DNA of 64,000 bases from NCBI RefSeq assembly GCF_018137985.1, contig NZ_CP073084.1:62001-126000 (forward strand), given 5' to 3'. Made by a program: the position numbers and the translations under genes. Below the pieces are notes generated by a model, which searched no databases, was not told the DNA's origin, and saw only the letters and a list, made by a program, of their open reading frames with translations. Numbering within the stretch: position 1 is the stretch's first letter; every line of letters starts with the position of its first letter. Positions 33,652 through 53,200 of this stretch are shown in pieces. Source of the stretch: Streptococcus oriscaviae (GTDB taxonomy: Bacteria; Bacillota; Bacilli; Lactobacillales; Streptococcaceae).

Positions 33652-34554
33652 TTAAATGATGTCAGTCAGCTCAGTCGTTGCAGCAATGAAATCAATAAAA
33701 TTTCTCAGATCCTTGGTAAGAGGCTTATTATTTCGATAGACAGCGTAGTAAATACGGGCATTTTTCAAATCATCCAACTCGATGATTTCAATGTCCTCAA
33801 TCGTATGGAGGAAGTCCAGTTTGGGCATAAGGGCTAGCCCAAAGCCTTGGGAAACCAGACCAGCCACCGTTTCGTCCTCACTGACTTCAAAGGCAATCTG
33901 CGGTCTTTCTTTTTCCTTGCTATATATCTGTTCAATCAGGGGTCTCATGCCGCTCCGCGGGGAAAACCAAACTTGGGGATAGGGCAGGGTATCCGTGATG
34001 GTCACCTTGTCTAGGTCCAAGAGGGGGTGTTTTTTTGGAACAATCAAGACCATATCCTGGGCAAAGATAGGGATGAAAGAAATCGTCGGATAGTTTTCTA
34101 GTTTGGAACAAAAGGCCAAATCGTAGCGATCGTTGAGGACGCCTTCCACCATATCCGTGGACATGCCGCTGTCATTGTGAAAGTCAAAGCGGGAATTGGT
34201 TTTAGGATAGGCTTCCATAAACTTTCGAACCAAGTTTGGAACGGCCTTTCTTCCCAGCACCCGAAGGAGGGTCAGATTGATAACCGGTCTATTGGAATGT
34301 TTTTTCTGGAGGTGGCTGATACCCTTGTCCAAAATGGCAAGAGATGATTGGACTGTGGCATAAAACTCTCTGCCTTGGTTGGTCAGTATGACATTGCGGC
34401 CCTGCTTGCGAAAGAGGGGGACCTTGATTTCTTCCTCCAGAGTGGCAATGGCATGGCTCAGGGTAGGCTGGGTGATATGCAATTTTTTAGCGGCATCGGT
34501 GTAGTGTTCTAGGTCAGCCAGAACCAAAAAATAGCGAAGATGTTGTAAATTCAT
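33652..34554 (-). CDS. LysR-family transcriptional regulator of the accessory cluster
   Basis: 300-residue LTTR with the N-terminal winged helix-turn-helix (residues 1-60: MNLQHLRYFLVLADLEHYTD, TQPTLSHAIATLEEE) and a C-terminal effector-binding domain. It is divergent from the isomerase-SDR-MFS operon, the usual LysR arrangement. A T-N11-A dyad lies in the shared gap, and an almost identical dyad sits before aroD2. The effector is likely a cluster substrate such as shikimate, quinate or an aromatic acid; that is inference. Confidence 0.9.
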   Translation of the reverse strand: MNLQHLRYFLVLADLEHYTDAAKKLHITQPTLSHAIATLEEEIKVPLFRKQGRNVILTNQGREFYATVQSSLAILDKGISHLQKKHSNRPVINLTLLRVLGRKAVPNLVRKFMEAYPKTNSRFDFHNDSGMSTDMVEGVLNDRYDLAFCSKLENYPTISFIPIFAQDMVLIVPKKHPLLDLDKVTITDTLPYPQVWFSPRSGMRPLIEQIYSKEKERPQIAFEVSEDETVAGLVSQGFGLALMPKLDFLHTIEDIEIIELDDLKNARIYYAVYRNNKPLTKDLRNFIDFIAATTELTDII

Positions 34555-34596
34555 ATGGGCCCCCTTGCGTTATCCTTGCTTCTATTGTAGCACGAA

Positions 34597-34613
34597 TGAT
34601 AGAAAGAATCTAT
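34597..34613 (+). promoter_or_regulatory. Candidate LysR operator 1
   Basis: TGATAGAAAGAATCTAT: arms ATAG and CTAT around seven bases, a T-N11-A box. It lies between the LysR gene and the divergent operon. It matches site 2 at 42680-42696 at 15 of 17 positions. Confidence 0.7.
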
Positions 34614-34635
34614 TGATTACCAATTTTTTTCTAAT

Positions 34636-34664
34636 TTGTTTTTCTATTCTGACTGGATTATAAT
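34636..34664 (+). promoter_or_regulatory. Promoter of the accessory cluster operon
   Basis: TTGTTT (34636-34641), a 17-base spacer, then TATAAT (34659-34664). The -10 is flanked by TTTCTAT and ATAGAAA, which may be further LysR half-sites. Confidence 0.7.
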
Positions 34665-34710
34665 TAAAAATATAGAAAGTGAAAAAAGTAACAAACTAGG
34701 AGGGTTGACG

Positions 34711-35553
34711 ATGTCTAAACGTTCACCAATCACCATCAGTTCCTGGACCTTGGGCGATCAATGTCGATTTGAAGACCGTGTCAAGGCTGCTAAGGATGCG
34801 GGCTTTGAAGCTATTGGCCTTCGTGCTGAAACCTATGTGGATGCACTCCAAGAAGGTCTGACCGATCAAGATATTTTGGCTATTTTGGCCAAGTATGACA
34901 TGGTAGTGTCCGAAGTTGAGTATATTGTACAGTGGGCAGAAGAAAACCGCAGCTATGAGCAAAAATACAAGGAGCAGATGTGCTTCCACATGTGCGACCT
35001 CTTTGGTGTCAACCATATTAACTGTGGCCTGATGGAAAACTATTCAGTTGAATACACAGGTCAAAAATTGAAAGAATTGTGTGCCCGTGCAGGTCACCGG
35101 ATTATCGGTGTGGAGCCCATGCCATATTCTGGGCTGCCGAACTTTGACAAGGCCTTTGCGGTTGTGAAAGCCTCTGGAGCGGACAATGCCCGGATTATTT
35201 TGGATACCTGGCATTGGGTGCGGGCAGACCAACCCTACCGTGCCCTTACAGCTGAAGAGGCAGCATCTGTTGTGTCCATTCAAATCAATGATGCCTACGA
35301 CCGCCCATATGCCTTCTCCATTCTTCGAGACGAATCCATGCATGATCGCCTAGCACCTGGTACAGGTGCTAAGGACACAGCCGGTTTCCTCCGGATGGTG
35401 AAAGAGGCTGGCATTAGCCCAGCGGTTGTTGGTGTTGAGGTCATCTCTGATGAGATTCTCAGCCGAGGTTTAGACCAGGCAGCTAACCATACCTATGAAA
35501 ATACCATCAAGGTCTTGGAAGAAGTTTGGCCAGAGCTCTTGCCGGGCAAATAA
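34711..35553 (+). CDS. Sugar-phosphate isomerase/epimerase-like TIM barrel
   Basis: 280-residue AP-endonuclease-2/xylose-isomerase-like TIM barrel. The start is the ATG at 34711 (TAGGAGGG upstream), not the TTG at 34636, which is in the promoter. Likely metal ligands are Glu in GVEPMPYS, Asp and His in ILDTWHW, Asn/Asp in QINDA and Glu in GVEVISDE. The superfamily includes inosose isomerases and dehydratases, and also 3-dehydroshikimate dehydratases. The cluster context makes a cyclitol or shikimate-type substrate attractive but unproven. Confidence 0.8.
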   Translation: MSKRSPITISSWTLGDQCRFEDRVKAAKDAGFEAIGLRAETYVDALQEGLTDQDILAILAKYDMVVSEVEYIVQWAEENRSYEQKYKEQMCFHMCDLFGVNHINCGLMENYSVEYTGQKLKELCARAGHRIIGVEPMPYSGLPNFDKAFAVVKASGADNARIILDTWHWVRADQPYRALTAEEAASVVSIQINDAYDRPYAFSILRDESMHDRLAPGTGAKDTAGFLRMVKEAGISPAVVGVEVISDEILSRGLDQAANHTYENTIKVLEEVWPELLPGK

Positions 35554-35559
35554 TGCTGA

Positions 35560-35591
35560 AACAGTCAATCGCATGATTGAGTGACTGTTGG
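35560..35591 (+). other. Intergenic hairpin between isomerase and SDR genes
   Basis: ACAGTCAATC pairs with GATTGAGTGACTGT (small bulge) around GCAT. There is no T-run, so it is more likely a processing or stability element than a full terminator. Confidence 0.4.
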
Positions 35592-35618
35592 TGAAAAATA
35601 AAAAATGAGGAGAAAATC

Positions 35619-36473
35619 ATGTCAGACAAATGGTTAGGACTTGAAGGAAAGGTTGCAGCTGTCACAGGTGCCGTTGGAGGTATGGGACGGACCATCGTTC
35701 AAGAATTTGCAAAACAAGGAGCCAAGGTAGTGCTCATGGATATTCGTGAGGACGCCTTGGTCGAGTACGCAGAAGAGATTGCCAAAGAATATGGTATCGA
35801 AACCCTTGCAGTAAAGACCAACTCCGTTTCAGAAGAAGAAGTGGACAATGCTGTTGCTAAAACCCTAGAAAAATTTGGCCGGGTGGACATCTTGGTCAAT
35901 ACAGCAGCCATGCTGCGTGCCTGTCCCTTAGAGGATCTTCCTCTGGATGAATGGCGAGAAACTGTCGATATCAACTTGACAGGTTACTTCTTGGTATCTC
36001 AGCGCTTCGGCCGCCAATTTATCAAGCAAGGAAAGGGAACCATGGTTCACATTTCCACCATTGCCTCTGTTTTCCCAGAAACCTATTCCGCAGCTTATAG
36101 CTCCACCAAGGCTGGGGTCAACATGATGTCTCGTCAAATGGCTGCAGAATGGGGCCAATTTGGGGTTCGCTCCAACTGTATTCAGCCATGTTTTGTGAAA
36201 ACTCCCTTGTCTGAAAGCTTCTATGCAGATCCAGTGGTAGAAGAAGGTCGCAAGGCCTTGACCGCCAACAAACGGATTGGAAATACCATGGACATTGCCA
36301 ATGCGGTTATGTACCTTGCCAGTGATCGTTCCGACTACACCAATGGTCATGAACTCCGTGTGGAAGGTGGATTTGGTATCATGATGGGTGACCAAACGCC
36401 AAAACCAGGTGGCCGTCGGGAATTTGCTGTCAAAGAGCATGAGGCTTACTTGGCCCGCTTGAATGGCAAATAA
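35619..36473 (+). CDS. SDR-family oxidoreductase
   Basis: 284-residue short-chain dehydrogenase: cofactor motif TGAVGGMG near residues 16-23, NTAA near 92, catalytic Ser in HISTIAS and YSSTKAG near 164-170. Such enzymes oxidise or reduce ring hydroxyls. In this cluster it could act on quinate, shikimate or a reduced product. AGGAGAAAATC precedes the ATG. About 30 residues follow the usual SDR end and are rich in basic residues. Confidence 0.85.
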   Translation: MSDKWLGLEGKVAAVTGAVGGMGRTIVQEFAKQGAKVVLMDIREDALVEYAEEIAKEYGIETLAVKTNSVSEEEVDNAVAKTLEKFGRVDILVNTAAMLRACPLEDLPLDEWRETVDINLTGYFLVSQRFGRQFIKQGKGTMVHISTIASVFPETYSAAYSSTKAGVNMMSRQMAAEWGQFGVRSNCIQPCFVKTPLSESFYADPVVEEGRKALTANKRIGNTMDIANAVMYLASDRSDYTNGHELRVEGGFGIMMGDQTPKPGGRREFAVKEHEAYLARLNGK

Positions 36474-36582
36474 GAAAAGCGCAAATCGTTCCAAGTCAAT
36501 GGCCCATTAAACGGTCCAGCGATTCATTCATCGTTTCAAAATGAACAATAGCAATGTCTTTATGAAAGGAATTTAGGATTCA

Positions 36583-37905
36583 ATGTTCAAAAACAACAAA
36601 TACAATTTCACGGCATTCCTGCTCTGGATGGCTTACTTCTGTCATGGGATGCAGGCCATCATCATTTCTCAGAACTCTCAATTTTTTGCCATTAAGTGGG
36701 GCTTGATTGATGCTGCTGATTTGACAGATGCGACAAAATTGGCTGCAGCAACAGCTTCCGTACTGGGCGCCGTTGCCTGGACAGGGATTGGTAAAATCTC
36801 ATTTTTGACCTTCTCAGGTCCCCTGTCTGATAGAATCGGACGCAAGCCAGTAGCGGTTGCCGGTTTGGCAGGTTATGTGATTATGTTTGCGGGCTTCTTG
36901 TTTGCCAGCAACATCATGACAGCCAATATTTTGGCCTTCATCGGTGGGGCCATGACCTCTCTCTTTGATGGTTCCATGAACCCAGCTCTCTTTGAAATGT
37001 ATCCAGAGAATAAGTCAACAGCTTCTGTCCTTGGTAAGACCTTTATCTCTGTATCATCCATCTTATACCCACTCTTTGTAGCCTTCCTGGCCACCAACAG
37101 CATGTCTGCTGAAATTGGTATCTGGGTGCCATTCATCCTTAGTACCTTGGTCTTTATCGGTGCTGTCTTTGCGCCATTCCCAGACTTGGATCTTCAGAAG
37201 GCTGAGAAGCTCAAGCCAGCGCAGGCGATCAAAGAATTGGCCAAACGCCAAACTCCAGCAACAGCAGCGTCAGCAGAGGCTGCAGGCGATTCAAACCGTG
37301 CCAAGTTTATCATTGACGGAACGGTCTTGTCTCTCTTTGCCCTCTCTATCTACTCAAACTTCTATCTCTTCCAACAGGCATCTAAAATCTATGCTCAGAA
37401 TGTTCTAGCGATGGATTCAACATCCGCAGCAGCAGTAACTTCCTGGTACCAATTTGGTGGCCTGATTGCGACCATCTTCTTCTCATTCTTGATGGCTCGC
37501 GGTATTCGAGATATTTCAATCTTAGTGGTTTCTCCAATCTTTGCAGGCCTAGCAGGTTTGGCGGTATTCTTCTTCCCAAGCCCAACAGTCTTGACCCTGG
37601 CTGGTGTCGTAGTAGGTTTCTGTTCTGCAGGTGGATTGTTGCAGATGGGGAACGGTGTCCTCAACCAGTTCTTTACCTCTAACAAAGGTTTCAATACAAC
37701 TGTTTACTACTTTGTCATGGCCCTTGGTTCCTATATCGTACCACAGGCTGCCTCTAGCATGATTGCAAGCGGCAAGGCTGAGATGATTATGATTTTTGTT
37801 GCAGTGACCGGTATCCTGTCCGCAGCCATCATGGCCTTTGTCGGCAGACGATACAGCCATATCTTTGGTGTTTCCATCTTCTCAAATTCTAAAGCAACAA
37901 AATAG
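36583..37905 (+). CDS. MFS transporter 1 of the accessory cluster
   Basis: 440-residue major facilitator with about 12 membrane segments and a long central loop. The loop-2 motif SGPLSDRIGRKP is the MFS signature. A long extracellular insertion after the first helix (residues 30-60) is unusual. Context suggests uptake of an organic acid. It resembles the E. coli YdiM/YdiN type, whose genes sit beside ydiB-aroD. AAAGGAATT precedes the ATG. Confidence 0.82.
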   Translation: MFKNNKYNFTAFLLWMAYFCHGMQAIIISQNSQFFAIKWGLIDAADLTDATKLAAATASVLGAVAWTGIGKISFLTFSGPLSDRIGRKPVAVAGLAGYVIMFAGFLFASNIMTANILAFIGGAMTSLFDGSMNPALFEMYPENKSTASVLGKTFISVSSILYPLFVAFLATNSMSAEIGIWVPFILSTLVFIGAVFAPFPDLDLQKAEKLKPAQAIKELAKRQTPATAASAEAAGDSNRAKFIIDGTVLSLFALSIYSNFYLFQQASKIYAQNVLAMDSTSAAAVTSWYQFGGLIATIFFSFLMARGIRDISILVVSPIFAGLAGLAVFFFPSPTVLTLAGVVVGFCSAGGLLQMGNGVLNQFFTSNKGFNTTVYYFVMALGSYIVPQAASSMIASGKAEMIMIFVAVTGILSAAIMAFVGRRYSHIFGVSIFSNSKATK

Positions 37906-37990
37906 TGTATAATAAAATGGAAGGCTATGGTGGTATCACCTTAGTCTCCATTTATAGTGATGAGACAAGCCAATCACAATATTTTATTCG

Positions 37991-39238
37991 ATGAAGGGGA
38001 AACTTTCTGTGAAAAGAAACAAGTATATTCCTACAATTAGCAGTTTATATGTCAACTATGCCTTTCAAGGAATTGCTGCCATTATTGTATCCCAAAACAT
38101 GTCTGTTTTAAGGTCCCAATGGGGGGCCAGTCTTAGCCAAGTGACCCTGGTACTCAGTGCAGTCGGCCTTGGACGCATTCTCAGTATCAATCTGGCTGGT
38201 ATTATTTCAGACAGGTTAGGGAGGAAGCCTGCTGTTATTTTAGGAATTATTTCCTATATCGTCTTCTTCCTTGGGTTGCTCTATTCACCAAACTATATAC
38301 TGGGCTTTATCTTTTCGGTCTTTGCTGGTTTTGGCAATGCCTTTCTGGACACAGCTACCTATCCAGTAGTTGTAGAAGCCTTTGACAATCGCTCTAAAAA
38401 CAGCGCCCTCAGTGTCTTGAACAAGGCCTTTATCTCTATGGGCCAGTTCGTCTTTCCTATCATCGTGCGCTTTATGCTCAACAATGATATCTATTTTGGG
38501 TGGACTTTTCTGGTTTCAGCCCTCTGTATGTTGGTCAATCTCTTGATTGTCTTGAAGTTGCCATTCCCAGAGGTTTCTCATGGCAAGCCTGTTCAAACAG
38601 ATCTCCAAAGTGAGCCTGTGACACATTACAAACCAACGGGGGCCAAATTCCAAGTAGAAGGACTTGCTCTGATGGTCTTCTCCTTTGTCTCCGTATCTCT
38701 CTTTAATATCTTTATTACCTGGATTCCAAGTTTCACCCAGTCAGCCTTGGGCATGAAAGAAGCTGATAGTTTGATTTGGGTTAGTGCCTATAGCATTTTC
38801 TCCTTTGTCTCGGTCTTTGTCACTTCTTTTATTGTCAATCGTGGCATTCACGTTCCCCTCTTTATGATGTTTTGTACCAGCATCACTGGTACAGCCTTGG
38901 GCATCATGTTACTGGTGCCAAACTATTACACTGTTTTGCTAGCCACCTTCTGTGTTGGTTTCTTTGCGGCAGGTGGTATTTGGCAGCTGGGCTTGGTGGT
39001 TCTTCTGGAATTCTTCCCTTTCAAGCGGGGTTTGCTGACCAGTTATTATTCGCTGGCCACCTCCATCTCCGTGATGGGCATTCCCTATTTGACGGGTATC
39101 TTGGCAGAAAGCAATATTCAATATGTTTTTTTACTCATTGTAATCCTTGCCTTCCTAGGCACCCTCAGTCTATATTTCGTTTATAGACGTTATCAACTCA
39201 TGTATTACCCTGAAAAAAAGGGCTATCAACCATCATAA
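37991..39238 (+). CDS. MFS transporter 2 (YdiN-like)
   Basis: 415-residue major facilitator with 12 membrane segments and the loop motif SDRLGRKPAV. Segments such as NAFLDTATYPVVVEAF and FAAGGIWQLG recall the YdiN-type carriers next to ydiB-aroD in enterobacteria. It is a tandem, clearly diverged neighbour of MFS 1. A TATAAT-like box and a small hairpin lie in the gap before it (37908-37960), so it may have an extra promoter. Confidence 0.82.
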   Translation: MKGKLSVKRNKYIPTISSLYVNYAFQGIAAIIVSQNMSVLRSQWGASLSQVTLVLSAVGLGRILSINLAGIISDRLGRKPAVILGIISYIVFFLGLLYSPNYILGFIFSVFAGFGNAFLDTATYPVVVEAFDNRSKNSALSVLNKAFISMGQFVFPIIVRFMLNNDIYFGWTFLVSALCMLVNLLIVLKLPFPEVSHGKPVQTDLQSEPVTHYKPTGAKFQVEGLALMVFSFVSVSLFNIFITWIPSFTQSALGMKEADSLIWVSAYSIFSFVSVFVTSFIVNRGIHVPLFMMFCTSITGTALGIMLLVPNYYTVLLATFCVGFFAAGGIWQLGLVVLLEFFPFKRGLLTSYYSLATSISVMGIPYLTGILAESNIQYVFLLIVILAFLGTLSLYFVYRRYQLMYYPEKKGYQPS

Positions 39239-39273
39239 GGTCATCATCATACTTTTAGAAAGAGGTAACAACT

Positions 39274-40158
39274 ATGGCAGAACGTTTATCCGGTCATACA
39301 CTCCTGGTTTCGCTCATTGCGACCCCAATCCGCCACTCCCTTTCCCCAAAAATGCACAACGAAGCTTATGCAAAACTAGGCTTGGATTATGCCTACCTTG
39401 CCTTTGAAGTAGGTAACGAAGAGTTGCCAGGAGCCGTTCAGGGCATCCGTGATTTGGGCATTCGTGGTTCCAATGTATCCATGCCAAATAAACAGGCCAT
39501 CATTCCGCTCTTGGATGAGCTTTCACCTGCTGCTGAATTGGTTGGCGCGGTTAACACAGTTGTCAATAAAGATGGCAAGGGGCATCTGGTTGGTCACTGT
39601 ACGGATGGTACAGGCGCTGTGCGCGCCTTGGCTGAAGAAGGCGTGGACATCAAGGACCAGATTATCACTCTGGCTGGTGCTGGTGGGGCTGGTACAGCCA
39701 TCGCCATTCAACTGGGCTTAGATGGAGCAAAAGAGGTTCGCATTTTTAACATCCAAGATAGCTGTTATGAGAATGCGGTTAAAACCGTTGAAAAACTCAA
39801 TAGCCGGACCGATTGCAAGGCCAGCCTTCATGATTTGGCAGACACAGAAGCCTTCTATCAATCTATCGCTGAAAGTTCAATCTATATTGATGCAACTGGT
39901 GTTGGGATGAAACCTTTGCAGGATCAAAAACTGATCAATGATCCAGCAGTGATTCGACCAGACCTGGTGGTCTTCGATGTGGTCTATAGCCCAGCTGAAA
40001 CCGAGTTGCTCCGTTTTGCCAAGGAACATGGTGCCAAAAAGGCCATCAATGGTCTGGGCATGATGCTCTATCAGGGGGCAGAAGCCTTCAAACTGCACAC
40101 TGGAGAAGACATGCCCGTTGAATACATCAAGGACTTGCTCTTTGGTGAAGAAAAATAA
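39274..40158 (+). CDS. Shikimate/quinate dehydrogenase, YdiB-like (second AroE)
   Basis: 294-residue shikimate dehydrogenase-family enzyme. Catalytic Lys near 73 (SMPNKQ) and Asp near 111 (CTDGTG) are present, plus the nucleotide-binding GAGGAG near 135-140. It has SLSPKMHN and MPNKQ, and the later VGMKPL as in E. coli YdiB, whereas the housekeeping AroE at 47731 has SISPFIHN and MPYKQ. YdiB-type enzymes use quinate or shikimate with NAD or NADP. It is followed by a terminator. Confidence 0.88.
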
Positions 40159-40165
40159 TAATCAG

Positions 40166-40196
40166 GCATGGCTTGCTTCAGTAAGCTATGCTTTTT
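40166..40196 (+). terminator. Terminator after the ydiB-like gene
   Basis: GCATGGCTT (40166-40174) pairs with AAGCTATGC (40183-40191), then TTTTT. Confidence 0.8.
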
Positions 40197-40299
40197 CTTT
40201 AGACAAGTCAACTACGAAAAAATTGATTGAAAAGGTAAAAATCACAAAACGCAGCATAATAGAAGCACCATTATTTACAAAGAAAGGAAGTCACCGCCT

Positions 40300-41256
40300 A
40301 TGAAAATTCATCCCTTTCCCGGATATGAAAACCACCTTGCCAGCAATCTAGCAGACAAGTCTAGTGAGGAAGTTCAACATCGTACAAAGGCTCAGATAGA
40401 GGCTATGCTTGCCTATCAACTTCCAGACGGAATGACCATGGAAGACCGTTTGATTCCTGGTCCAGACCCAGGGCAAGAATTGAAAATTCGGGTCTTTACC
40501 CCAGCCAATTTACCAGACAAGGCACCCATGATTTTAGATATTCATGGCGGTGGTTTTGTGGCAGGTTCTGTCGACATTGATAATGGCCGCTGTATTGCTT
40601 TAGCGGCGCGCGTGCCAGCTATTGTCGTCTCCGTTGACTACCGACTCAGCGGCAAAGATGGCATCCATTTCCCGAAACCTCTCCATGATTGTCATGCAGC
40701 CTACATGTATTTGCACCAGCATCCAGAAGAATTTGGTGGCGACCCGCATCGTATTGGACTCCATGGTTCGAGCGCTGGTGGAACCATCGCAGGAGGCCTG
40801 GCCCTATACCTCCGGGACCGGAATGAACCGCAGCCAGCCTTGACAGTTCTAAATTGTCCGACCTTCTCCCTGAACATTGACGCCTCTCTTTCCATGCACC
40901 AATACTTGGATTTGAAGATGGGGCCAGATAATAAGGCTCTGGGAGCAGAGGCCACCTATCTTGGAGGTTACAATGGCTATGCGCCGTCCTATTATGCCTT
41001 TCCAGATTATTGTCCAGACCTGGGAGGCTTGGGAGCGACCATGATTGTTGTGGCCGAATACGATACCCTTCGGGATACGGGTCTGGAATATGCCCAAAGG
41101 CTGCTTCGTTTTGGAGTTCCTTGTGAGCTCTATCAAGCGCCCCGACTGGGGCATTGCTATACTGCGACTCCCCATCCCTTTACAGATTTCACTCATGATA
41201 TGATGGCCTGGTCCTTCAAACGTGAATTTGGAATCTTGGATGAACTAAAAAAATAA
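40300..41256 (+). CDS. Alpha/beta hydrolase, HSL-type esterase
   Basis: 318-residue esterase of the hormone-sensitive-lipase group: oxyanion motif HGGGF at residues 82-86, nucleophile Ser158 in GSSAG, Asp in EYDTLRD and His in LGHCY complete the triad. There is no signal peptide, so it acts inside the cell. In this cluster it could release quinate or shikimate from an imported ester such as a hydroxycinnamoyl quinate; this is inferred. AGAAAGGAAG precedes the ATG. Confidence 0.87.
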   Translation: MKIHPFPGYENHLASNLADKSSEEVQHRTKAQIEAMLAYQLPDGMTMEDRLIPGPDPGQELKIRVFTPANLPDKAPMILDIHGGGFVAGSVDIDNGRCIALAARVPAIVVSVDYRLSGKDGIHFPKPLHDCHAAYMYLHQHPEEFGGDPHRIGLHGSSAGGTIAGGLALYLRDRNEPQPALTVLNCPTFSLNIDASLSMHQYLDLKMGPDNKALGAEATYLGGYNGYAPSYYAFPDYCPDLGGLGATMIVVAEYDTLRDTGLEYAQRLLRFGVPCELYQAPRLGHCYTATPHPFTDFTHDMMAWSFKREFGILDELKK

Positions 41257-41286
41257 GATGATTGAAAAATGTTAGGAGAGTGAACC

Positions 41287-42624
41287 ATGAGTCCAGCCAT
41301 ACTTGCCCTCATTATGCTTGCAATTATTGTTCTATTTATCCTTTTTGAGAAACAATTAAAGGTGCCCATGAATTTTGTCTTGTTTACGGTACCAGTCATT
41401 TTTAGTTTCTTGATGGGATATGATTTGACCCAGACCAGCACCTTCATCTTGACCCAGCTCAGTACAGTTATGAATCAAACTGGCTACATGCTCTTGTTTG
41501 GCTTGATTTACTTTGTCATGCTGACAGAAACGGGCATGTTTGATGTTATGGTCAATGCGGTCATGAAACGGATTGGCAATCGCTTGAATGTGATTGGGGT
41601 GATGATCTTGACGTCAGTCCTTGGGGCCATTGCCTACTTGACAGCCAATATGTCCACCACCTATTTGATTGTATTTCCCATCGTCATTCCCCTGTACAAG
41701 AAATTTAAGATTGATCGAGATTTTGCCTTTATCATCTGCCAGACAGCAGTAGCGGCCATGTGTTGGCTGCCTTGGGGGATCGGGGTGATTATGTCCGCCA
41801 CCATGGCTGGGACCAATGCTGAAACGTTGGCTCAAGCCTCCATTCCTTGGGGAGTCTGTTTTATCCCTGCCATCATCTTGCAGTATGTCTACTTTGCTTG
41901 GCGGCATAAAAAAGAGCATGGCAGTCTCGGGTTGCCAAAGGATACTCAAGTACAAGAGTCAGAAAATCAGGCTACACAAGAAAAGGAATTTGCCCGCCAT
42001 GATTTGTTTTGGATCAATTTCTTGATTTTTATCTTAGTCGTTGTAGCCCTGGCAGTCTTCAAGGTTCCATCCTACTTGGTCTTCATCGCTGCCTCTATGG
42101 TGACGGCTCTGATCAATTATCCTAAGAACTTTGGTCAGATTTGGAATAAGGCGGGCATGACCTTCTTCAATGTTTTGATCATGCTCTTGGCCATCTGTTT
42201 TTATCTAGCCATCTTCAATGCAGCTCCAGAAGATGGGAGCAAACTCTCCATGGTGGCTTCATTGGCTCAGCTCTTGGAGAGCATCTTCCCAGCCTTCTTG
42301 CTCAACTACATGCACATTGTCTTCCTGCTCTTGGCGGTACCGATTATCTACTTTGTGCCTTACCAATTATACAATGCCCTCTACCCCCTCTTTATTTCAG
42401 TCGGGGCTGCCTTTGGCCTGTCACCGATTGCCATCATTGCACCCTTTGTTTGCAATCTGGCTTTGGCAACAAGTGTCACTCCTATGAATTCTGCCACCTT
42501 TGTTGGCTGTTCCCTAATTGAAAGAGAGGTTGGACCTTACACTCGTCAGGCTGCACCCATCATGTTTGTCACTAATCTGATTGTGGTCTTGACGGCGCTG
42601 TTGACGGGAGTTTTGCAATTTTAA
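41287..42624 (+). CDS. CitMHS-type organic acid transporter
   Basis: 445-residue carrier with 11-12 membrane segments resembling the citrate-Mg:H+ symporter family and related ion transporters. The segment TANMSTTYLIVFPIVIPLYKK and a second inverted half (LALATSVTPMNSATFVG) are typical of this fold. The substrate is unknown; a carboxylate such as quinate, shikimate or a reduced product fits the cluster. TTAGGAGAG precedes the ATG. It ends at a terminator. Confidence 0.75.
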   Translation: MSPAILALIMLAIIVLFILFEKQLKVPMNFVLFTVPVIFSFLMGYDLTQTSTFILTQLSTVMNQTGYMLLFGLIYFVMLTETGMFDVMVNAVMKRIGNRLNVIGVMILTSVLGAIAYLTANMSTTYLIVFPIVIPLYKKFKIDRDFAFIICQTAVAAMCWLPWGIGVIMSATMAGTNAETLAQASIPWGVCFIPAIILQYVYFAWRHKKEHGSLGLPKDTQVQESENQATQEKEFARHDLFWINFLIFILVVVALAVFKVPSYLVFIAASMVTALINYPKNFGQIWNKAGMTFFNVLIMLLAICFYLAIFNAAPEDGSKLSMVASLAQLLESIFPAFLLNYMHIVFLLLAVPIIYFVPYQLYNALYPLFISVGAAFGLSPIAIIAPFVCNLALATSVTPMNSATFVGCSLIEREVGPYTRQAAPIMFVTNLIVVLTALLTGVLQF

Positions 42625-42635
42625 TACTGAAAAGA

Positions 42636-42660
42636 AACTAGGAAATTGCCTAGTTTTTTT
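42636..42660 (+). terminator. Terminator after the CitMHS gene
   Basis: AACTAGG pairs with CCTAGTT around AAATTG, followed by at least five more T. Confidence 0.85.
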
Positions 42661-42679
42661 GGTTTTTGAGAGGGAATAC

Positions 42680-42696
42680 ATAGATTTCTTCTATCA
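42680..42696 (-). promoter_or_regulatory. Candidate LysR operator 2
   Basis: On the minus strand it reads TGATAGAAGAAATCTAT, with arms ATAG and CTAT and a T-N11-A box. It is nearly the same as site 1 (34597-34613) and lies 85 bases before aroD2. Confidence 0.7.
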
Positions 42697-42780
42697 GTTT
42701 AGAAAAATATATTCATTAGATTTATCAATTCCTTTGTGTTAAGATTTTAGTGAATAATATCACAAAAAGGCGGTATCATT

Positions 42781-43548
42781 ATGGCAGGCGCAACTGTAAC
42801 AGTTTCAGGTATTACATTTGGTCAAGGTAGACCAAAAATTATTGTTCCTTTGGTTGGAAAAACGGAGGAAGAAATTTTAGCAGCTGCCAGTCAGGCAAAG
42901 GTTTTGGACTGCGATGTCATCGAATGGCGGATTGATTTTTATGAGCAGGTGGAGAGTCCTGAAAAAGTTGCAGACCTTTCCCACAAGGTCAGACAGGCAG
43001 CGAATAAGCCAGTCTTGGTGACTTTCCGAACAGCCAAGGAAGGCGGTGTTTTGCCCATCTCTGATGAGCTGTATTTCGAGATTTACAAGGCAGTTTTAAG
43101 AGATGGTCAGGCTGATCTCATGGATGTGGAACTCTTCATGCCAGAAAAAGAAGTGGCAGAAATCATTGCCCTTGCCCATGAAAAAGAGGTAAAGGTTATC
43201 ATGTGCAACCATGACTTTGATGCGACTCCAGATAAGGATGAGATTGTCCGCCGTTTGATCTTGATGGAAGATCGCGGGGCAGATATCTGTAAAATCGCAG
43301 TCATGCCTCAATCCAATCAGGATGTTTTGACTCTTTTGACTGCCACTGCTGAAATGTATGCCAAGGCAACTCGTCCGCTCATTACCATGTCTATGGGAGC
43401 TTTGGGAATGGTCAGCCGTGTCAGCGGTGAGGTCTTCGGTTCCTCAGCAACCTTTGGAGCGGCAGCCAAGGCATCTGCACCTGGGCAGGTTCCAGTTTCA
43501 GAATTGCGTAACATTCTATCCACATTGAAATTAAGCAACGAGGAGTAA
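42781..43548 (+). CDS. 3-dehydroquinate dehydratase, type I (second copy)
   Basis: 255-residue type I dehydroquinase with catalytic His144 (CNHDFDATP) and Lys171 (DICKIAVM), the positions seen in enterobacterial AroD. It is longer than, and clearly different from, the biosynthetic copy at 25887, which keeps company with aroC. Here it precedes a flavoprotein and follows a LysR-type operator, so a catabolic role in quinate use (dehydroquinate to dehydroshikimate) is likely. The flavoprotein gene starts two bases after its stop. Confidence 0.93.
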   Translation: MAGATVTVSGITFGQGRPKIIVPLVGKTEEEILAAASQAKVLDCDVIEWRIDFYEQVESPEKVADLSHKVRQAANKPVLVTFRTAKEGGVLPISDELYFEIYKAVLRDGQADLMDVELFMPEKEVAEIIALAHEKEVKVIMCNHDFDATPDKDEIVRRLILMEDRGADICKIAVMPQSNQDVLTLLTATAEMYAKATRPLITMSMGALGMVSRVSGEVFGSSATFGAAAKASAPGQVPVSELRNILSTLKLSNEE

Positions 43549-43550
43549 TC

Positions 43551-46460
43551 ATGTCCAAACATTTATTCGAATCATTGACCTTGAAATCAGGTGTCGAATT
43601 GAAAAACCGCATCCTGGTTTCCCCTATGACCACCCAGTCGGCCTACTTTGATGGGAAAGTTCCGCAGGAATTAGTGGATTATTATGCCCATCGTTCTGGT
43701 GAAGTTGGGGCTGTGATTGTGGAATCTGCCTTTATTGACAATTATGGCCGAGGCTTCTACGGGGCTGTTGGGATTGACAAAGACGACAAAATTCCAGGCC
43801 TGGCAAAACTAGCTCAAGCTATTCAAGCCAAGGGTTCAAAAGCCTTTATCCAAATTTACCATGCTGGTCGAATGGGCTTCTCCAATATGAACGAGGGGAA
43901 AAATCCAGTTTCTGCCTCCCCAGTGGCTGCTCTGCGTCCTGATGCACCTGTTCCAACAGAATTGACCCACCATGAGATTTTGGATATGGTTGATGCCTAT
44001 GCGGAAGGGGTTCGCAGAGCCATCAAGGCAGGCTTTGATGGGGTGGAATTGCACGGGGCCAATACCTATCTCCTGCAACAATTTTTCTCTCCTCATTCAA
44101 ACCGACGCCAGGATGCCTGGGGCGGAACCATTGAAAAACGAGCAAAATTCCCCATCGAAGTTGTCAAGGCTGCCAAAAAAGTTATCGAAGAAGAAGGGGT
44201 CAAAAATTTTGTCCTCGGCTATCGTTTCTCACCTGAGGAGCTGGAAGTTCCCGGTATCCAATTTGAGGATACCATGTACCTCCTCCATCAATTGGCAGAA
44301 TTTGACTTGGATTATTTCCATTTCTCCATGGGGATTTACACCCGCAATTCCATTGTTCATGCGGATGACCCAGAGATGCTGATCAGCAAATACAATGCCC
44401 TCAAAACTGGAAAATTAGCTCAAACTCCGATTATGGGGGTTGGTGGCATTATGCAGAAAGAGGATGCTGAGGGAGCCTTGGAAGCAGGCTATGACCTAGT
44501 GGCTGTAGCCAAGGGCTTCTTGGTCGATCCAGACTGGGCCGGCTCCATTAAGGTCGGCAAAAAGGTTCAACCCTATGCAGATGTGAAGGATCGCAAGGCC
44601 CTCTTTATTCCAGAACCGCTCTGGGATTTCATGGACGAAAGCTTCTTCTTGGTCAAGGACGTCGCAGCAGAAAAAGCCAAGGAAGCTCGTCTGGAGGAGT
44701 TGATGAGCAAGCCACTTGAGTTTAAGGCTGGCACTTATCATGTTACAGCCCATGGCCACAACAATGAATTGCCAATGGTCGTAACCTTTGATGACCATAA
44801 GATTACTGCTATTGAAATTGACAGTGCAGACGAGTCAGAAGGTCTGTCAGACTTGGTATTTGAACGGATTCCAAAACAGATTATCGAATTCCAAACCCTC
44901 AATGTCGATGCCGTATCAGGCGCGTCATCAACCTCACAAGGGGTTATCGATGGGGTATCAGATGCAGCCCGTCTGGCAAGTGGTCAAGATGCGGTTGATG
45001 TCCTGAAAGCCCGTCAAAAACCAGTTATTGAAAAATCAACTCAGGTTCTGGAAGAAGAAGTGGATGTAGTGGTTGTCGGCGGTGGTGCTGCCGGTATCGC
45101 AGCCTCCCTGCGTGCGGATGAACTGGGTCTCAAGACCATGCTGGTTGAAAAACTCAGCTTTATCGGTGGAGCCATCTCTGTATCTGGTGGGAACCAGGTG
45201 GTGATGGGCTCCAAGCTTCAAAAAGCTGCCGGTGTGACGGATGATACAGTCGAATCCATGTTTGATGACTTCATGGTCAATGGTAATGGCCAGAATGTCC
45301 GCTCTCTCTTGACCCTTTTGGCTGAAAATGTTGGTCAGGCAACGGACTGGGTTAATGAATACATCGGTGTCCAATACGATATGGAAACGGGCCTCCATGT
45401 CCTGGCTGAATATGCCAAGGATCGGGAGTTGGCCTATGCCCACGGTGGACATGGCTTTGCAGCCTCTGTTCGGGCTAAGATGGCAGCTTCTAATGTTCAA
45501 ATCCTCCTTCAAACTAAGGCAGAAGAACTCCTGACAGATGGTCAGGGTAATGTCGTAGGTCTGGTTGCTGTGGAAGAAAACGGCACTACTCATCGAATCT
45601 CAGCCAAGGCTGTTGTACTGACAACCGGTGGTTATGGAAATAACAAGGAAATGTTACCAGACGACCTCAAAGATGTTCTCTTCTACGGTACCAATTCTTC
45701 AATGGGTGAGGGTGTCCTCATGGCGCAAGCCCCTGGCGTGGATGCCGCGACTCGGATGATGCACCTCGGTAAGATCTATCCAAATGGATTGGAAGTCGCA
45801 CCAGGAAAAGCCAAATCAACCATTGACGGAAACTTGCGTGTCCTCAAAGAAAATGGCCTCCTTCTCAATGGGGCAGGAAAACGTGTGGTCAACGAACGGG
45901 CCTCCAACCATGATATCTTGGAAGTTCTCCTGCAGCAAGAGCCTAAGATTCTCTATCTCTTGCTTGACCAAAAACACTTTGACAGCTTCCGAGAAGGCAT
46001 CGCAGAAGGCGGAATCTCCTCTGCAGAAGTTGAAAAATGGCTGCAGAGCAATGGCCGTGAAACGCCATACCTCTACCATGGAGATACGCTGGCTCAACTG
46101 GCAGATGTTGCAGGTATTGATGCAGCTACGCTTGAAGAGACCGTTGCTCGCTACAATAGCTTCGTAGCAAATGGCAAGGACGAAGATTTCCAACGTGAAC
46201 TCCGTTTCCTTCAAGTCCCTGTTGGAGAAGGACCATACTATCTGATTGAGCAAAAACCACGGTTTGCAACGACCATGGGAGGTTTGGTTGTCAATGACAA
46301 ACTAGAAGTCATCAATACCAAGGACACTGTCATCAAGGGCCTCTATGCCGCTGGTGAAGTTGTCGGCGGGGTAATGGGGACAGACTCACCATCCGGTGCC
46401 AATAATGCTTGGGCCCTGACTTCTGGTAAATTGGCTGCCGAACAAATTGCCAAAGACTAA
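43551..46460 (+). CDS. OYE / FMN-binding / FAD-binding fusion flavoprotein (enoate reductase-like)
   Basis: 969-residue protein with three parts. Residues 1-355 are an old-yellow-enzyme TIM barrel (QIYHAGR, then VELHGANTYLLQQFFSPHSN near 165-184). About 410-480 is an FMN_bind domain with the flavinylation-like motif DAVSGAS at 453-459. From 505 on is a fumarate-reductase-type FAD domain (VVGGGAAG near 508; ATTMGGL; TDSPSGANNAWA). The same architecture is known in soluble NADH-dependent fumarate, acrylate and hydroxycinnamate reductases. It has no signal peptide, so it would be a cytoplasmic NADH-driven reductase of an alpha,beta-unsaturated acid. Shikimate, dehydroshikimate or a cinnamate are candidates. 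The acceptor residue is Ser rather than the commoner Thr. Confidence 0.88.
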   Translation: MSKHLFESLTLKSGVELKNRILVSPMTTQSAYFDGKVPQELVDYYAHRSGEVGAVIVESAFIDNYGRGFYGAVGIDKDDKIPGLAKLAQAIQAKGSKAFIQIYHAGRMGFSNMNEGKNPVSASPVAALRPDAPVPTELTHHEILDMVDAYAEGVRRAIKAGFDGVELHGANTYLLQQFFSPHSNRRQDAWGGTIEKRAKFPIEVVKAAKKVIEEEGVKNFVLGYRFSPEELEVPGIQFEDTMYLLHQLAEFDLDYFHFSMGIYTRNSIVHADDPEMLISKYNALKTGKLAQTPIMGVGGIMQKEDAEGALEAGYDLVAVAKGFLVDPDWAGSIKVGKKVQPYADVKDRKALFIPEPLWDFMDESFFLVKDVAAEKAKEARLEELMSKPLEFKAGTYHVTAHGHNNELPMVVTFDDHKITAIEIDSADESEGLSDLVFERIPKQIIEFQTLNVDAVSGASSTSQGVIDGVSDAARLASGQDAVDVLKARQKPVIEKSTQVLEEEVDVVVVGGGAAGIAASLRADELGLKTMLVEKLSFIGGAISVSGGNQVVMGSKLQKAAGVTDDTVESMFDDFMVNGNGQNVRSLLTLLAENVGQATDWVNEYIGVQYDMETGLHVLAEYAKDRELAYAHGGHGFAASVRAKMAASNVQILLQTKAEELLTDGQGNVVGLVAVEENGTTHRISAKAVVLTTGGYGNNKEMLPDDLKDVLFYGTNSSMGEGVLMAQAPGVDAATRMMHLGKIYPNGLEVAPGKAKSTIDGNLRVLKENGLLLNGAGKRVVNERASNHDILEVLLQQEPKILYLLLDQKHFDSFREGIAEGGISSAEVEKWLQSNGRETPYLYHGDTLAQLADVAGIDAATLEETVARYNSFVANGKDEDFQRELRFLQVPVGEGPYYLIEQKPRFATTMGGLVVNDKLEVINTKDTVIKGLYAAGEVVGGVMGTDSPSGANNAWALTSGKLAAEQIAKD

Positions 46461-46631: not shown

Positions 46632-47699
46632 CTATTTTTCCAAGTATTCCTTCATTTCTTCTAAGGAAATCTGGTTGATGGCGGCCTGACCCAATTGAGG
46701 GACAAGGATGGTTTTGATGGTCTTGCCTCTAGCCTTTTTGTCACGGGTTAGGGCTGTATAGAGTTGTTCAGTCTCCCATGGTTCATAATCTGTTGGCAAG
46801 CCAAACTTGCTGCACATGGCAATAATCTGATCTGTCAAGCCTGCAGACATCAGCCCTTTTTTCTCAGCAACGCGGGAGATTTGGACCATGCCGATAGCAA
46901 CAGCCTCGCCGTGCATGACCTGACCATATCCTGCGATGGCTTCGATAGCATGGCCGATAGTATGGCCGAAATTGAGATGGAGGCGCAGGCCATTGTCCAG
47001 CTCGTCAGCCACCACTAGCTTGCGTTTGACCTGACAGGAGCGGTAGATGAGGCTTTCAGCATGCTCTAAGATACTGTCTGTCGAGCCATCCATTTCCTGG
47101 AGTTCTTCCCAGAGTTCGACATCATCGATTAGGCCATACTTGATGACCTCCCCCATGCCTTCAATCAGTTCCCGTTTACCTAAAGTTTGCAGAGTAAGGG
47201 GGTCAATCAGGACACCGTCAGGCTGATAGAAGCAGCCAACCATGTTTTTAGCAAAGGGGGTATTGACCCCCGTTTTTCCACCGATGGAGGAGTCCACTTG
47301 GGCTGTCAGGCTGGTTGGGATTTGTAAAAAGTGAATGCCCCGCATATAGGTAGCAGCTACAAAGCCAGCCAAATCGCCGACAACACCGCCACCTAGGGCA
47401 ATAATCCCATCACTTCGGGTCATGCCATGTTGGACCAAACATTCATAGGCATCTTGGGTTACAGCTAAGTTTTTGCTGGATTCGCCTTCTGGAAAAACGA
47501 AGACAAAGACCTCAAAACCTGCTTCCTCCAAGCTAGTCTTGACTGGCTCAGTATACAGTTGATGGACCTGACTATCTGTAATAATGGCAATCTTCTGTGG
47601 TTGCCAGAGGCCGGCTACCCATTGCCCAGCCTTGGTCAAGTTTCCTTTTTCAATAACCAAATCATAGGGGTGATGTGGTAAATTGACGCGTATGTGCAC
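46632..47699 (-). CDS. aroB: 3-dehydroquinate synthase
   Basis: 355-residue NAD- and metal-dependent enzyme making 3-dehydroquinate from DAHP. It shows [19 protein letters not shown], the NAD-binding core, and the metal-site HxxxHAIE-type segment [11 protein letters not shown]. The start is a GTG at 47699 with AGGTGAT upstream. It is last in the minus-strand operon after two DAHP synthases and aroE. Confidence 0.95.
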
Positions 47700-47730
47700 A
47701 GAATCACCTACTTTCTTTTTTGAATGATGC

Positions 47731-48597
47731 TTATTTGGTGTATTTTTCTTCTAGGGCAGCCCAGATATCATCGGTCGGCATCTTTTCCCCTGTCCAGGAT
47801 TCAAAGGCTTCAGCAGCTTGGAAAAGCAGCATACCTAGACCATTGATGGCTGGCAATCCCTTACTTCTGACCAAGCGAAGGAAAGGTGTTTCAAAAGGTT
47901 GGTAAATAACATCGGCCACCTGAATCCCTGCTGGGAACTGGGTATCCTCTTTGAGCAACATGGATGTGCCATCCATACCGACACTGGTCGCGTTGACCAA
48001 GAGGTCCGATTCCAAAATCTTGTCCTGGACTAAATCCAGATTTTCAATAGGGAAAACCTGAATGGTGACGCCAGTTGCTTTTGAAATTTTATCAGCTTTT
48101 TGAACAGTTTCTGCTAAGAAATCCGTCTGGTTGAAGACATAGATGGTTTTTGCGCCATTGAGGGCAGCCTGTGCGATAATGGCAGTTCCAGCACCGCCTG
48201 CTCCCAAGATGGTCATGACTTTATCCTTGACCTCGAAATCCGCATAGGTAGCCAAACTTCTGAAGAAACCGATGCCGTCTGTGTTGTGACCAATCAATTT
48301 TCCATCCTTGTTGATAACGGTATTCACAGCACCAATCAAATCGGCCGAATCGGTCAATTCATCAACATACTGCATGATGGCCTGTTTGTAGGGCATGGAA
48401 ATATTGATTCCAAACATATCATAGCGTTTGACATTGGCAACAGTCGCAGCCAATTCTTCTTCCGGGATATCCCAGGCAACATAGACGCCGTTGACGCCAG
48501 TCTTGTCAAAGGCAGCATTATGAATGAAGGGAGAGATTGAGTGTTTAATAGGGCGGGCTACAACAGCAGCCAGACGGGTGTGTCCATCAATTTGCAT
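47731..48597 (-). CDS. aroE: Shikimate dehydrogenase (biosynthetic)
   Basis: NADP-dependent reduction of 3-dehydroshikimate to shikimate. The start is set at the ATG at 48597 (AAGGAGAA upstream), giving 288 residues; the frame extends upstream but into the neighbour gene. Catalytic Lys near 71 (SMPYKQ), NTDGIG and GAGGAGT are all present. It sits between DAHP synthase and aroB, so it is the housekeeping copy. The YdiB-like paralogue is at 39274. Confidence 0.94.
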
Positions 48598-48658
48598 AAG
48601 GTTCTCCTTTAGTTTCTGAGGTGTCATCTGAGATGGGGTGTTGGGACGATTGGTCAGG

Positions 48659-49687
48659 CTACTCAACAGTCTGATAGATTTCACGAATGAGTTTTTCTGT
48701 CTTATCCCAGCCCAGACAAGGGTCAGTAATGGATTTTCCAAAGACATCTGGACTATCTTGGCGACCATCTTCCAAGTAGGATTCAATCATAAAGCCGCGA
48801 ACATACTTGCGAATGTCTTCATTCCAGGCCCGATTGATGAGGGTTTGGCGGACAATGCGGATCTGTTCCAGGTAGTTTTTGCCGGAATTATCATGATTGG
48901 TATCGATGACAATGAAAGGATTGGCGAGGCCGAAGCGCTCATACTGTTTGATAGTCTTGACAAGAATATCGTAGTAGTAGTTGGGTTCATTGACACCCTG
49001 TTCGGTACTGGCACCTCGCAAGATAGCATGGGCCAGTGGGTTGCCATCCGTATCCACTTCAGCATCCCTGTATATGAAGTTTTGTTTATTTTGGGCTGCG
49101 TAGATGGCGTTGAACATGACAGTCAGATTGCCCGAAGTTGGATTTTTCATGCCGGTTGGCATGTCGATGCCAGAAGCCACAAAACGGTGCTCCTGATCCT
49201 CAACGGAGCGAGCCCCAATAGCGTGGTAGGAAACCAAATCTTCGACCAGAGGCAGGTTGGCTGAGTAGAGCATTTCGTCCGCTGTTGTCAGCCCTGTCTC
49301 GGTAATGACACGGTAGTGGAGGTTACGTACCGCAGCGATACCGTTGATTAGATCCGGTAACTTGGAAGTGTCAGGTTGGTGGACTAGGCCCTTATAGCCC
49401 TCGCCATTGGTCCGTGGTTTGGCCGTATAGACCCGCATGACCATAAAGATTTTATCCTTTACTTCCTCCTGAAGCTTGGAGAGGCGACGGGCATATTCTA
49501 AGACTGCTTCCTCATTATCTGAAGAGCAAGGACCGATGACCAGCAAGAGTCGCTGGTCTTCCCCGCGAATGACCTTTTTCAGCTCCTCATCTCGTTTTTC
49601 CTTGGCGGTGAGGAAATCTCCTTTTAGTTTAGACAACTCTTTGACTTGTGCAATATCAATGGTAGCACTTCTTTGATGAATTCCCAT
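48659..49687 (-). CDS. DAHP synthase, copy 1
   Basis: 343-residue class I 3-deoxy-7-phosphoheptulonate synthase of the AroF/G/H type, the entry step from PEP and erythrose 4-phosphate. VIGPCSSDN, RVYTAKPRTNG and DTNHDNSGK are the active-site motifs. It is a tandem paralogue of the next gene upstream, separated by ten bases. Different feedback control (Phe versus Tyr) is the usual reason for such pairs but cannot be read from this sequence. Confidence 0.94.
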   Translation of the reverse strand: MGIHQRSATIDIAQVKELSKLKGDFLTAKEKRDEELKKVIRGEDQRLLLVIGPCSSDNEEAVLEYARRLSKLQEEVKDKIFMVMRVYTAKPRTNGEGYKGLVHQPDTSKLPDLINGIAAVRNLHYRVITETGLTTADEMLYSANLPLVEDLVSYHAIGARSVEDQEHRFVASGIDMPTGMKNPTSGNLTVMFNAIYAAQNKQNFIYRDAEVDTDGNPLAHAILRGASTEQGVNEPNYYYDILVKTIKQYERFGLANPFIVIDTNHDNSGKNYLEQIRIVRQTLINRAWNEDIRKYVRGFMIESYLEDGRQDSPDVFGKSITDPCLGWDKTEKLIREIYQTVE

Positions 49688-49697
49688 AGCTTTCTTC

Positions 49698-50717: not shown

Positions 50718-50758
50718 TGGTGGAATCCTCTATCTTTCATATTTTTGTGTGTTTCACT

Positions 50759-50767
50759 ATTATACCA
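50759..50767 (-). promoter_or_regulatory. Extended -10 for the DAHP synthase operon
   Basis: On the minus strand TGGTATAAT, about 40 bases before the GTG start. The -35 is weak. Confidence 0.6.

Positions 50768-53200
<2,433 letters not shown>

Follow-up and report, generated by a model that had tools for sequence, protein, structure and literature searches.

The gene cluster

The DNA considered here is a stretch of 64,000 nucleotides from Streptococcus oriscaviae (contig NZ_CP073084.1, positions 62,001 to 126,000), called the window below; the host genome comprises 2,197,335 bases in one contig. At positions 33652-46460 of the window lies a cluster of ten intact and tightly packed open reading frames (Table 1), whose families were assigned by NCBIfam and Pfam profile searches against the cut-offs of these models. 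An earlier note, made from the sequence alone, had proposed the same ten genes as a system for the use of quinate and shikimate or of hydroxycinnamoyl esters, and both the frames and the family assignments were found to hold. By analogy with the systems discussed below, the cluster very probably serves the use of quinate and shikimate.

Table 1. Genes and promoter features of the cluster (window coordinates)
Feature	Position	Strand	Remarks
LysR-type regulator, QuiR-like	33652..34554	-	Divergent from the operon; HTH_1 and LysR_substrate
Putative LysR box ATAGA-N5-TCTAT (T-N11-A)	34599..34613	+	Inverted repeat in the LysR-TIM intergenic region
TATAAT, likely -10 promoter element of the operon	34659..34664	+	
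TIM barrel, Lmo2234-like, proposed dehydratase	34711..35553	+	AP_endonuc_2
Short-chain dehydrogenase (SDR), proposed hydroaromatic dehydrogenase	35619..36473	+	adh_short_C2
MFS carrier 1	36583..37905	+	Pfam MFS_1
MFS carrier 2	37991..39238	+	Pfam MFS_1
YdiB-like quinate/shikimate dehydrogenase	39274..40158	+	NF001313, 440.5 bits (cut-off 431)
HSL-family esterase (EST), accessory	40300..41256	+	Abhydrolase_3
Remote CitMHS relative (CIT), carrier, accessory	41287..42624	+	Below curated cut-offs
Second type I 3-dehydroquinate dehydratase (AroD2)	42781..43548	+	TIGR01093, 256 bits (cut-off 139.3)
969-aa flavoprotein, proposed 3-dehydroshikimate/shikimate ring reductase	43551..46460	+	Oxidored_FMN, FMN_bind and FAD_binding_2

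The best PDB match of the YdiB-like enzyme is 3TNL, an entry named 'Shikimate dehydrogenase' (E 3.8e-109) that we take to be a Listeria protein, and YdiB itself (1NPD) is matched at E 4.6e-87. The sequence keeps the motifs MPNKQ and CTDGTG, the Lys and the Asp of which are presumably catalytic. AroD2 matches 4PH6 at E 6.1e-78 and carries, as read in the sequence, the Schiff-base Lys and His motifs, to which we likewise ascribe catalytic roles. A core type I AroD is encoded elsewhere in the window (25887-26561), and a core AroE is found at about 47731-48582. AroD2 is 31% identical to the core AroD, and the YdiB-like enzyme 42% to the core AroE. The carrier previously called CitMHS-type is indeed related to CitMHS, but only remotely, with 31.8 bits against 31.9 in Pfam and 109.7 against 259.7 in NCBIfam. 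The start of the TIM gene had to be revised from TTG 34636 to ATG 34711, the most likely start, because the former precedes the TATAAT at 34659; the searches were run with 34708-35553, that is, with one extra Thr codon in front.

The regulator that adjoins the operon has 5TED (Lmo0488) as its best PDB match (E 3.7e-33), and it is 37% identical over its full length to the LysR protein of a Listeria-like locus (L128), which in turn matches 5TED at E 5.9e-131. If transcription starts where the TATAAT suggests, the centre of the putative LysR box is ca 65 bases ahead of that start, a spacing that fits the activation near -65 of LysR-type regulators. The TCTAT half of the box and the TATAAT are invariant in all 13 aligned streptococcal intergenic regions, that of the window included, while the ATAGA half varies. 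In the accessible part of PMC11602165, 5TED is QuiR with shikimate, and by analogy the present operon would be induced by shikimate.

Relation to the Listeria genes and conservation

The nearest studied system is that of the qui operons of Listeria monocytogenes. There, too, a QuiR regulator, the TIM barrel Lmo2234 (53% identical to that of the window), a YdiB-like enzyme, a type I AroD, MFS carriers and an OYE-type flavoprotein are found. The arrangement differs: in a Listeria-like genome these genes are spread over two loci (L040 and L128), with the order LysR-OYE-YdiB-AroD at the QuiR locus, and the flavoproteins are OYE-Pyr_redox enzymes without FAD_binding_2, whereas the window has an OYE-FMN-FAD protein and a single cluster. 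Close relatives of the SDR, EST or CIT were not found in the retrieved Listeria-like DNA (these two loci). The quinate/shikimate theme is therefore not wholly new, while the pocket signature described below is.

Within the genus, 13 of the 197 genomes have the TIM gene, the host genome among them, and within the order, which we read as Lactobacillales, 38 of 395 have it, so that the suggestion of a new trait for a pathogen-type streptococcus is not borne out. It also occurs in three of 398 genomes of a class-wide sample, all three of the window's genus; outside the order this is a sampling and no proof of absence. Named relatives of the TIM protein are those of S. cameli and S. ovis (88% identity) and S. 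suis (86%). All 12 other streptococcal neighbourhoods that were fetched keep the order LysR-TIM-SDR-MFS1-YdiB-AroD2-FLAV, where FLAV is the flavoprotein. MFS carrier 1 is present in 12 and MFS carrier 2 in 11 of them; EST and CIT form an optional pair, present in seven and always both or neither. The reading frame is split in two pieces for the SDR in L009 and for CIT in L014, and the flavoprotein is truncated by the end of the fetched stretch in L013 and L014. In a related genome without the cluster (L125), the two genes that flank it, those of the ABC ATPase and aroB, directly adjoin each other with a gap of 39 bases, which makes this an empty site for the cluster. The constant order and this empty site place the gene set beyond chance. 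The flavoprotein occurs in 15 of the 197 genomes, 13 of which also have the TIM gene; in L114 and L115, which have the flavoprotein without TIM, the order is FLAV-LysR-MFS-YdiB-MFS-AroD2.

The GC content is 0.464 in the cluster and 0.419 in the remaining window. No conclusion on horizontal transfer follows from this composition, since the neighbouring aro genes (46632-52726) have a matching value of 0.469.

The flavoprotein and its pocket

The flavoprotein consists of an OYE domain (residues 5-337), FMN_bind (402-473) and FAD_binding_2 (505-946). The Oxidored_FMN match has 250.5 bits, and the ELHGAN motif is present, with the His/Asn pair that we take to be functional in OYE ene-reductases. 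Inside FMN_bind, DAVSGAS at residues 453-459 corresponds to the flavinylation motif D-x-x-S/T-G-A-S/T. In what follows, proteins of this OYE-FMN_bind-FAD_binding_2 architecture are called type A, and the lactobacillus proteins with FMN_bind and FAD_binding_2 but no OYE domain type B. The flavinylation motif occurs somewhere in the protein in 18/18 type A and 69/71 type B cases. At the FMN acceptor position, 459, Ser (SGAS) is found in L026, P0164, P0170, P0221, P0228 and the window protein, and Thr (SGAT) in the other aligned proteins. Two ApbE genes are present in the host genome: the product of one, which lies beside the gene of an FMN_bind lipoprotein, has a lipoprotein-like signal, and that of the other has no visible signal. 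As the latter has a match in 192 of the 197 genomes of the genus, its presence indicates only that covalent modification is possible. In lactobacillus-type loci an ApbE gene lies in the flanking DNA in 25 of 68 cases, and it adjoins the reductase in L060 and L050.

The predicted structure (pLDDT 83.5, pTM 0.56) has the urocanate reductase UrdA as its best fold match in Foldseek. Among the best 120 of 1340 homologues, the named ones with at least 58% identity belong to Streptococcus, Gemella, Enterococcus or Aerococcus; below this value the full-length identity drops to ca 42% (Staphylococcus, Vibrio). The OYE-FMN-FAD reductases of Vibrio and Staphylococcus, presumably acrylate/cinnamate reductases, are like the window protein in domain order and flavinylation motif, at ca 40-42% identity.

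The FAD domain shares its fold with UrdA and flavocytochrome c3 (Fcc3), in which, as described in the accessible part of PMC7921117, an Arg acts as proton donor and a His and an Arg contact the carboxylate. All three are replaced in the window protein: relative to Fcc3, the alignment gives R402 to N, H504 to A and R544 to S. In addition, H365 is replaced by Tyr, as is also the case in UrdA. The Arg proton donor and the His/Arg carboxylate contacts of fumarate and urocanate reductases are thus not found in the window flavoprotein, while side chains of the R402/H504/R544 type are kept in all ten aligned OYE-FMN-FAD relatives of the other group, including those of Vibrio and Staphylococcus. Over the OYE-side half, three of these ten share 53-56% identity with the window protein. 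A role of the flavoprotein as a cinnamate or a fumarate/urocanate reductase is disfavoured by these pocket residues.

Proteins of the window and lactobacillus groups, although only 31% identical to each other, have K-x-YP-x-G, RFATT and G-x-DS in common. Among the conserved residues of the FAD domain are Tyr743, Arg904 and Asp945. In the fetched loci, K-x-YP-x-G is present in 17/18 type A and 71/71 type B proteins, G-x-DS[PM] in 16/18 and 69/71, and strict RFATT in 16/18 and 41/71; in two type A rows the protein is cut short by the end of the fetched stretch. HHTMGG or NRLGG was found in none of these 89 proteins, compared to 9 (HHTMGG) and 5 (NRLGG) of the 11 other flavoproteins in the same loci. 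Among the best 120 of the 1340 homologues, 107 have RFATT, 12 HHTMGG and 12 NRLGG, and one partial protein lacks both RFATT and HHTMGG. A loose E-x-RD pattern was not used, as it matches anywhere (5/18 type A, 48/71 type B); the aligned Arg site was used instead. Fumarate-type flavoproteins (HHTMGG/NRLGG) also lie near the type B flavoprotein in four Lactobacillus loci (L085, L093, L104 and L111).

Linkage to YdiB and AroD

The 72 type B loci came from a named scan, the query of which was an alignment of four lactobacillus-type flavoproteins taken from TIM loci. Because only the flavoprotein served as the query, a linkage to YdiB and AroD2 is not built into the set. Both genes are nearby in 60 of the 72 loci, in 59 of the 68 with a full-length flavoprotein, and in 43 of the 47 of these whose flanks extend for 8 kb or more in both directions. 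Of the type A loci, 17/18 have YdiB and AroD2, 13 of these 18 having been fetched through TIM. Among ten loci picked by flavoprotein matches, five have both (L114, L115, L117, L118 and L119). As judged from the sequences, the pocket signature thus tracks the YdiB/AroD linkage more than it does the OYE half.

In the same gene company the flavoprotein itself is exchanged: streptococci have OYE-FMN-FAD, lactobacilli FMN-FAD and Listeria OYE-Pyr_redox, in each case with YdiB and/or AroD next to it. In L. plantarum (L060) the order is LysR-TIM-SDR-YdiB-YdiB-MFS-LysR-YdiB-AroD2-ApbE-flavoprotein, and S. paracollinoides (L063) has the flavoprotein, YdiB and AroD genes as well. The three are also together in four Lactobacillus records (L087, L089, L106 and L111), whose species we take to be bee symbionts. 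In bees, several members of the community used quinate, according to the accessible part of PMC5726620.

Whiting and Coggins are said to have studied the enzymes of quinate and shikimate metabolism in L. plantarum in the 1970s. According to the accessible part of PMC13204703, which refers to another paper, quinic acid can be a hydrogen acceptor, and lactic acid bacteria may convert it to shikimic and on to dihydroshikimic acid. The route from quinate via shikimate to dihydroshikimate predicted here agrees with this, and the flavoprotein, YdiB and AroD genes are present in L. plantarum and S. paracollinoides; the streptococcal reductase differs from its lactobacillus counterpart by the fused OYE domain. 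By title and abstract, no gene assignment to reductive quinate metabolism and no report of the cluster in Streptococcus was seen among the matches listed in our literature search, outside of which most subscription journals lie.

Proposed mechanism

Taken together, the results favour a QuiR-type operon for quinate and shikimate with a mainly reductive output, a reading to which, as a whole, we assign a probability of about 0.58. Use of quinate and shikimate as such is well supported by the Listeria qui genes and by the YdiB/AroD linkage in the well-flanked loci of lactobacilli and relatives.

In the proposed mechanism, quinate or shikimate would be brought in by the MFS carriers, and EST and CIT, where present, would take in and open an ester. 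YdiB would oxidise quinate to 3-dehydroquinate, and dehydration by AroD2 to 3-dehydroshikimate would then form the C1=C2 bond of the ring. In the flavoprotein, electrons from NADH would pass from the OYE domain via the covalent FMN to FAD, where the ring C=C bond of 3-dehydroshikimate or shikimate would be reduced. Reduction of the carbonyl by YdiB or the SDR would finally give dihydroshikimate. Quinate and 2[H] correspond to dihydroshikimate and water, and the net reaction would be quinate + NADH + H+ -> dihydroshikimate + NAD+ + water. Since AroD makes the only ring C=C bond of the pathway, and since the reductase is kept beside AroD and YdiB, the ring C=C bond of 3-dehydroshikimate or shikimate is the simplest target for the flavoprotein. 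We consider it probable that the protein performs this reduction; the substrates, the order of the steps and NADH as the donor we infer. The earlier idea of a flavoprotein that disposes of electrons by reducing an enoate is right in kind and gains support.

The TIM barrel and the SDR would constitute a second module, separable from the flavoprotein-YdiB-AroD trio because the TIM gene is present in only 11 of the 72 type B loci. As a dehydratase, the TIM enzyme would take off the C5 hydroxyl, beta to the 3-ketone, converting 3-dehydroshikimate to protocatechuate. Alternatively, it would act after the ring reduction to form a diketone, which the SDR would reduce towards 3,4-dihydroxycyclohexanecarboxylate. 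A dehydratase acting beta to a ketone, followed by an SDR, its usual neighbour, would be suited to a second deoxygenation, although we can assign this role to the pair only tentatively.

An SDR of this kind adjoins 28 of the 40 TIM genes examined, or 28 of 33 when seven in another context are left out. The profile matches of the SDR are generic and include, below cut-off, the cyclohexanecarboxylate dehydrogenases ChcB1 and ChcB2. The seven TIM relatives (L024, L031, L033-L036 and L041, all of one genus) are paralogous barrels, 55-59% identical, and were set aside from the system, as their surroundings, conserved as well, are different and lack LysR and YdiB. In the TIM/LysR/YdiB clusters of L037 and L039, a 706-aa hydantoinase/oxoprolinase-like protein and a 442-aa likely membrane protein were seen by eye before the SDR, possibly a further substrate variant.

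Weighing of the alternatives

Several observations speak against the reductive reading. Half of the ten loci picked by flavoprotein matches (L116 and L120-L123) have no YdiB and AroD2 nearby; in L122 and L123 the match is limited to the OYE-FMN half, but L120 and L121 are exceptions that have the pocket signature without these neighbours. The lost Arg could be replaced by a basic residue in its vicinity, such as R783 of the window group or R394 of the lactobacillus group, and for this reason its loss rests on the alignment and not on a solved pocket. Invariant residues indicate constraint, not a substrate. In 12 of the 40 cases the TIM gene has no adjacent SDR. ApbE, carried by 192/197 streptococci, had to be dropped as a discriminating marker. 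Finally, the title of a 2020 paper by Xue reportedly names Listeria QuiC2 as a dehydroshikimate dehydratase, so the TIM enzyme may drain 3-dehydroshikimate to protocatechuate.

The last point leads to the most serious alternative, a dehydrative route in which YdiB and AroD2 supply 3-dehydroshikimate to a QuiC2-type TIM enzyme for conversion to protocatechuate, the flavoprotein and the SDR serving side reactions or redox balance. In its favour are the similarity to Lmo2234, the fact that the dehydroshikimate dehydratase 5HMQ of P. putida and IolI, tied, are the closest folds after Lmo2234, and the invariance in all 22 aligned proteins of E136, D166, H169, Q192 and E244, which may be counterparts of the metal ligands of QuiC. 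The titles of Xue 2020 and Prezioso 2018, known from reference lists, point the same way, as does cider, where catechol and ethylcatechol are formed from shikimic and quinic acids (accessible part of PMC7464816). The QuiC equivalog NF042435, a model of 635 positions for a two-domain enzyme, gives the TIM protein only 24.3 bits against a cut-off of 1200. The dehydrative route leaves no task for the flavoprotein, present in 12/12 other fetched clusters, or for the SDR usually beside TIM, and the flavoprotein, YdiB and AroD also co-occur without TIM, as in most of the type B loci. We therefore consider it unlikely, though a serious competitor.

Much less probable is the use of hydroxycinnamoyl esters, by which the esterase would cleave chlorogenate-like esters and the flavoprotein reduce the freed hydroxycinnamate. 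The OYE-FMN-FAD architecture, we assume, resembles that of NADH:hydroxycinnamate reductases, and in the 18 type A loci EST and CIT occur together (eight loci) or not at all. However, the pair is absent from 5/12 fetched streptococcal clusters that retain the flavoprotein, and the pocket lacks the Arg/His/Arg set kept by all ten aligned relatives, which is why this version of the original proposal is disfavoured here. Par1/HcrB hydroxycinnamate reductases have been described from lactobacilli (accessible part of PMC10295242). Another hydroaromatic or cyclitol substrate resembling quinate, handled by the same enzyme types, is marginally less probable still: AroD2 and YdiB fall into well-defined families with their catalytic residues retained, and the regulator resembles the shikimate-binding QuiR. 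Some public records label homologues of the flavoprotein as fumarate or urocanate reductases and the best fold match is UrdA, but an ordinary enzyme of this kind, in the cluster by chance, is hardly credible given the replacement of the three carboxylate-contact side chains and the regular linkage to YdiB and AroD.

Returning to the reductive operon, we see an even chance that the flavoprotein represents a new substrate class among fumarate-reductase-like flavoproteins, a 3-dehydroshikimate/shikimate C=C reductase of streptococci and lactobacilli, and that together with the TIM barrel and the SDR it makes up the hitherto unassigned gene set by which quinate is deoxygenated step by step to cyclohexane acids, which would serve as an electron sink under anaerobic conditions. 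Food and feed commonly contain quinate and its esters, which are plant acids, and the fermentation of quinate and shikimate by lactic acid bacteria has so far been described mainly from the products. If this reading is true, quinate can be an electron acceptor for fermenting streptococci and lactobacilli, and for its reduction and that of shikimate by lactic acid bacteria there are now candidate genes, a pocket signature that can serve as a marker, and an enzyme open to assay. Some enzymes of food and gut bacteria labelled as fumarate or urocanate reductases would then be mislabelled.

Further observations

The proteins of L122 and L123, of ca 520 aa and with a match to the flavoprotein confined to its OYE-FMN half, have an ApbE gene near, and one may ask if they are electron donor modules for a separate reductase. 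Elsewhere in the host genome, at C1:1926746-1928127 (L004, L005), the FMN_bind lipoprotein and the lipoprotein-like ApbE lie beside apparent polyprenyl/menaquinone-type synthesis genes, perhaps a locus for flavin-based extracellular electron transfer. In the core aro cluster of the window, two tandem DAHP-synthase-like genes of the same type were seen by eye at 48659-50717, beside aroB/aroE.

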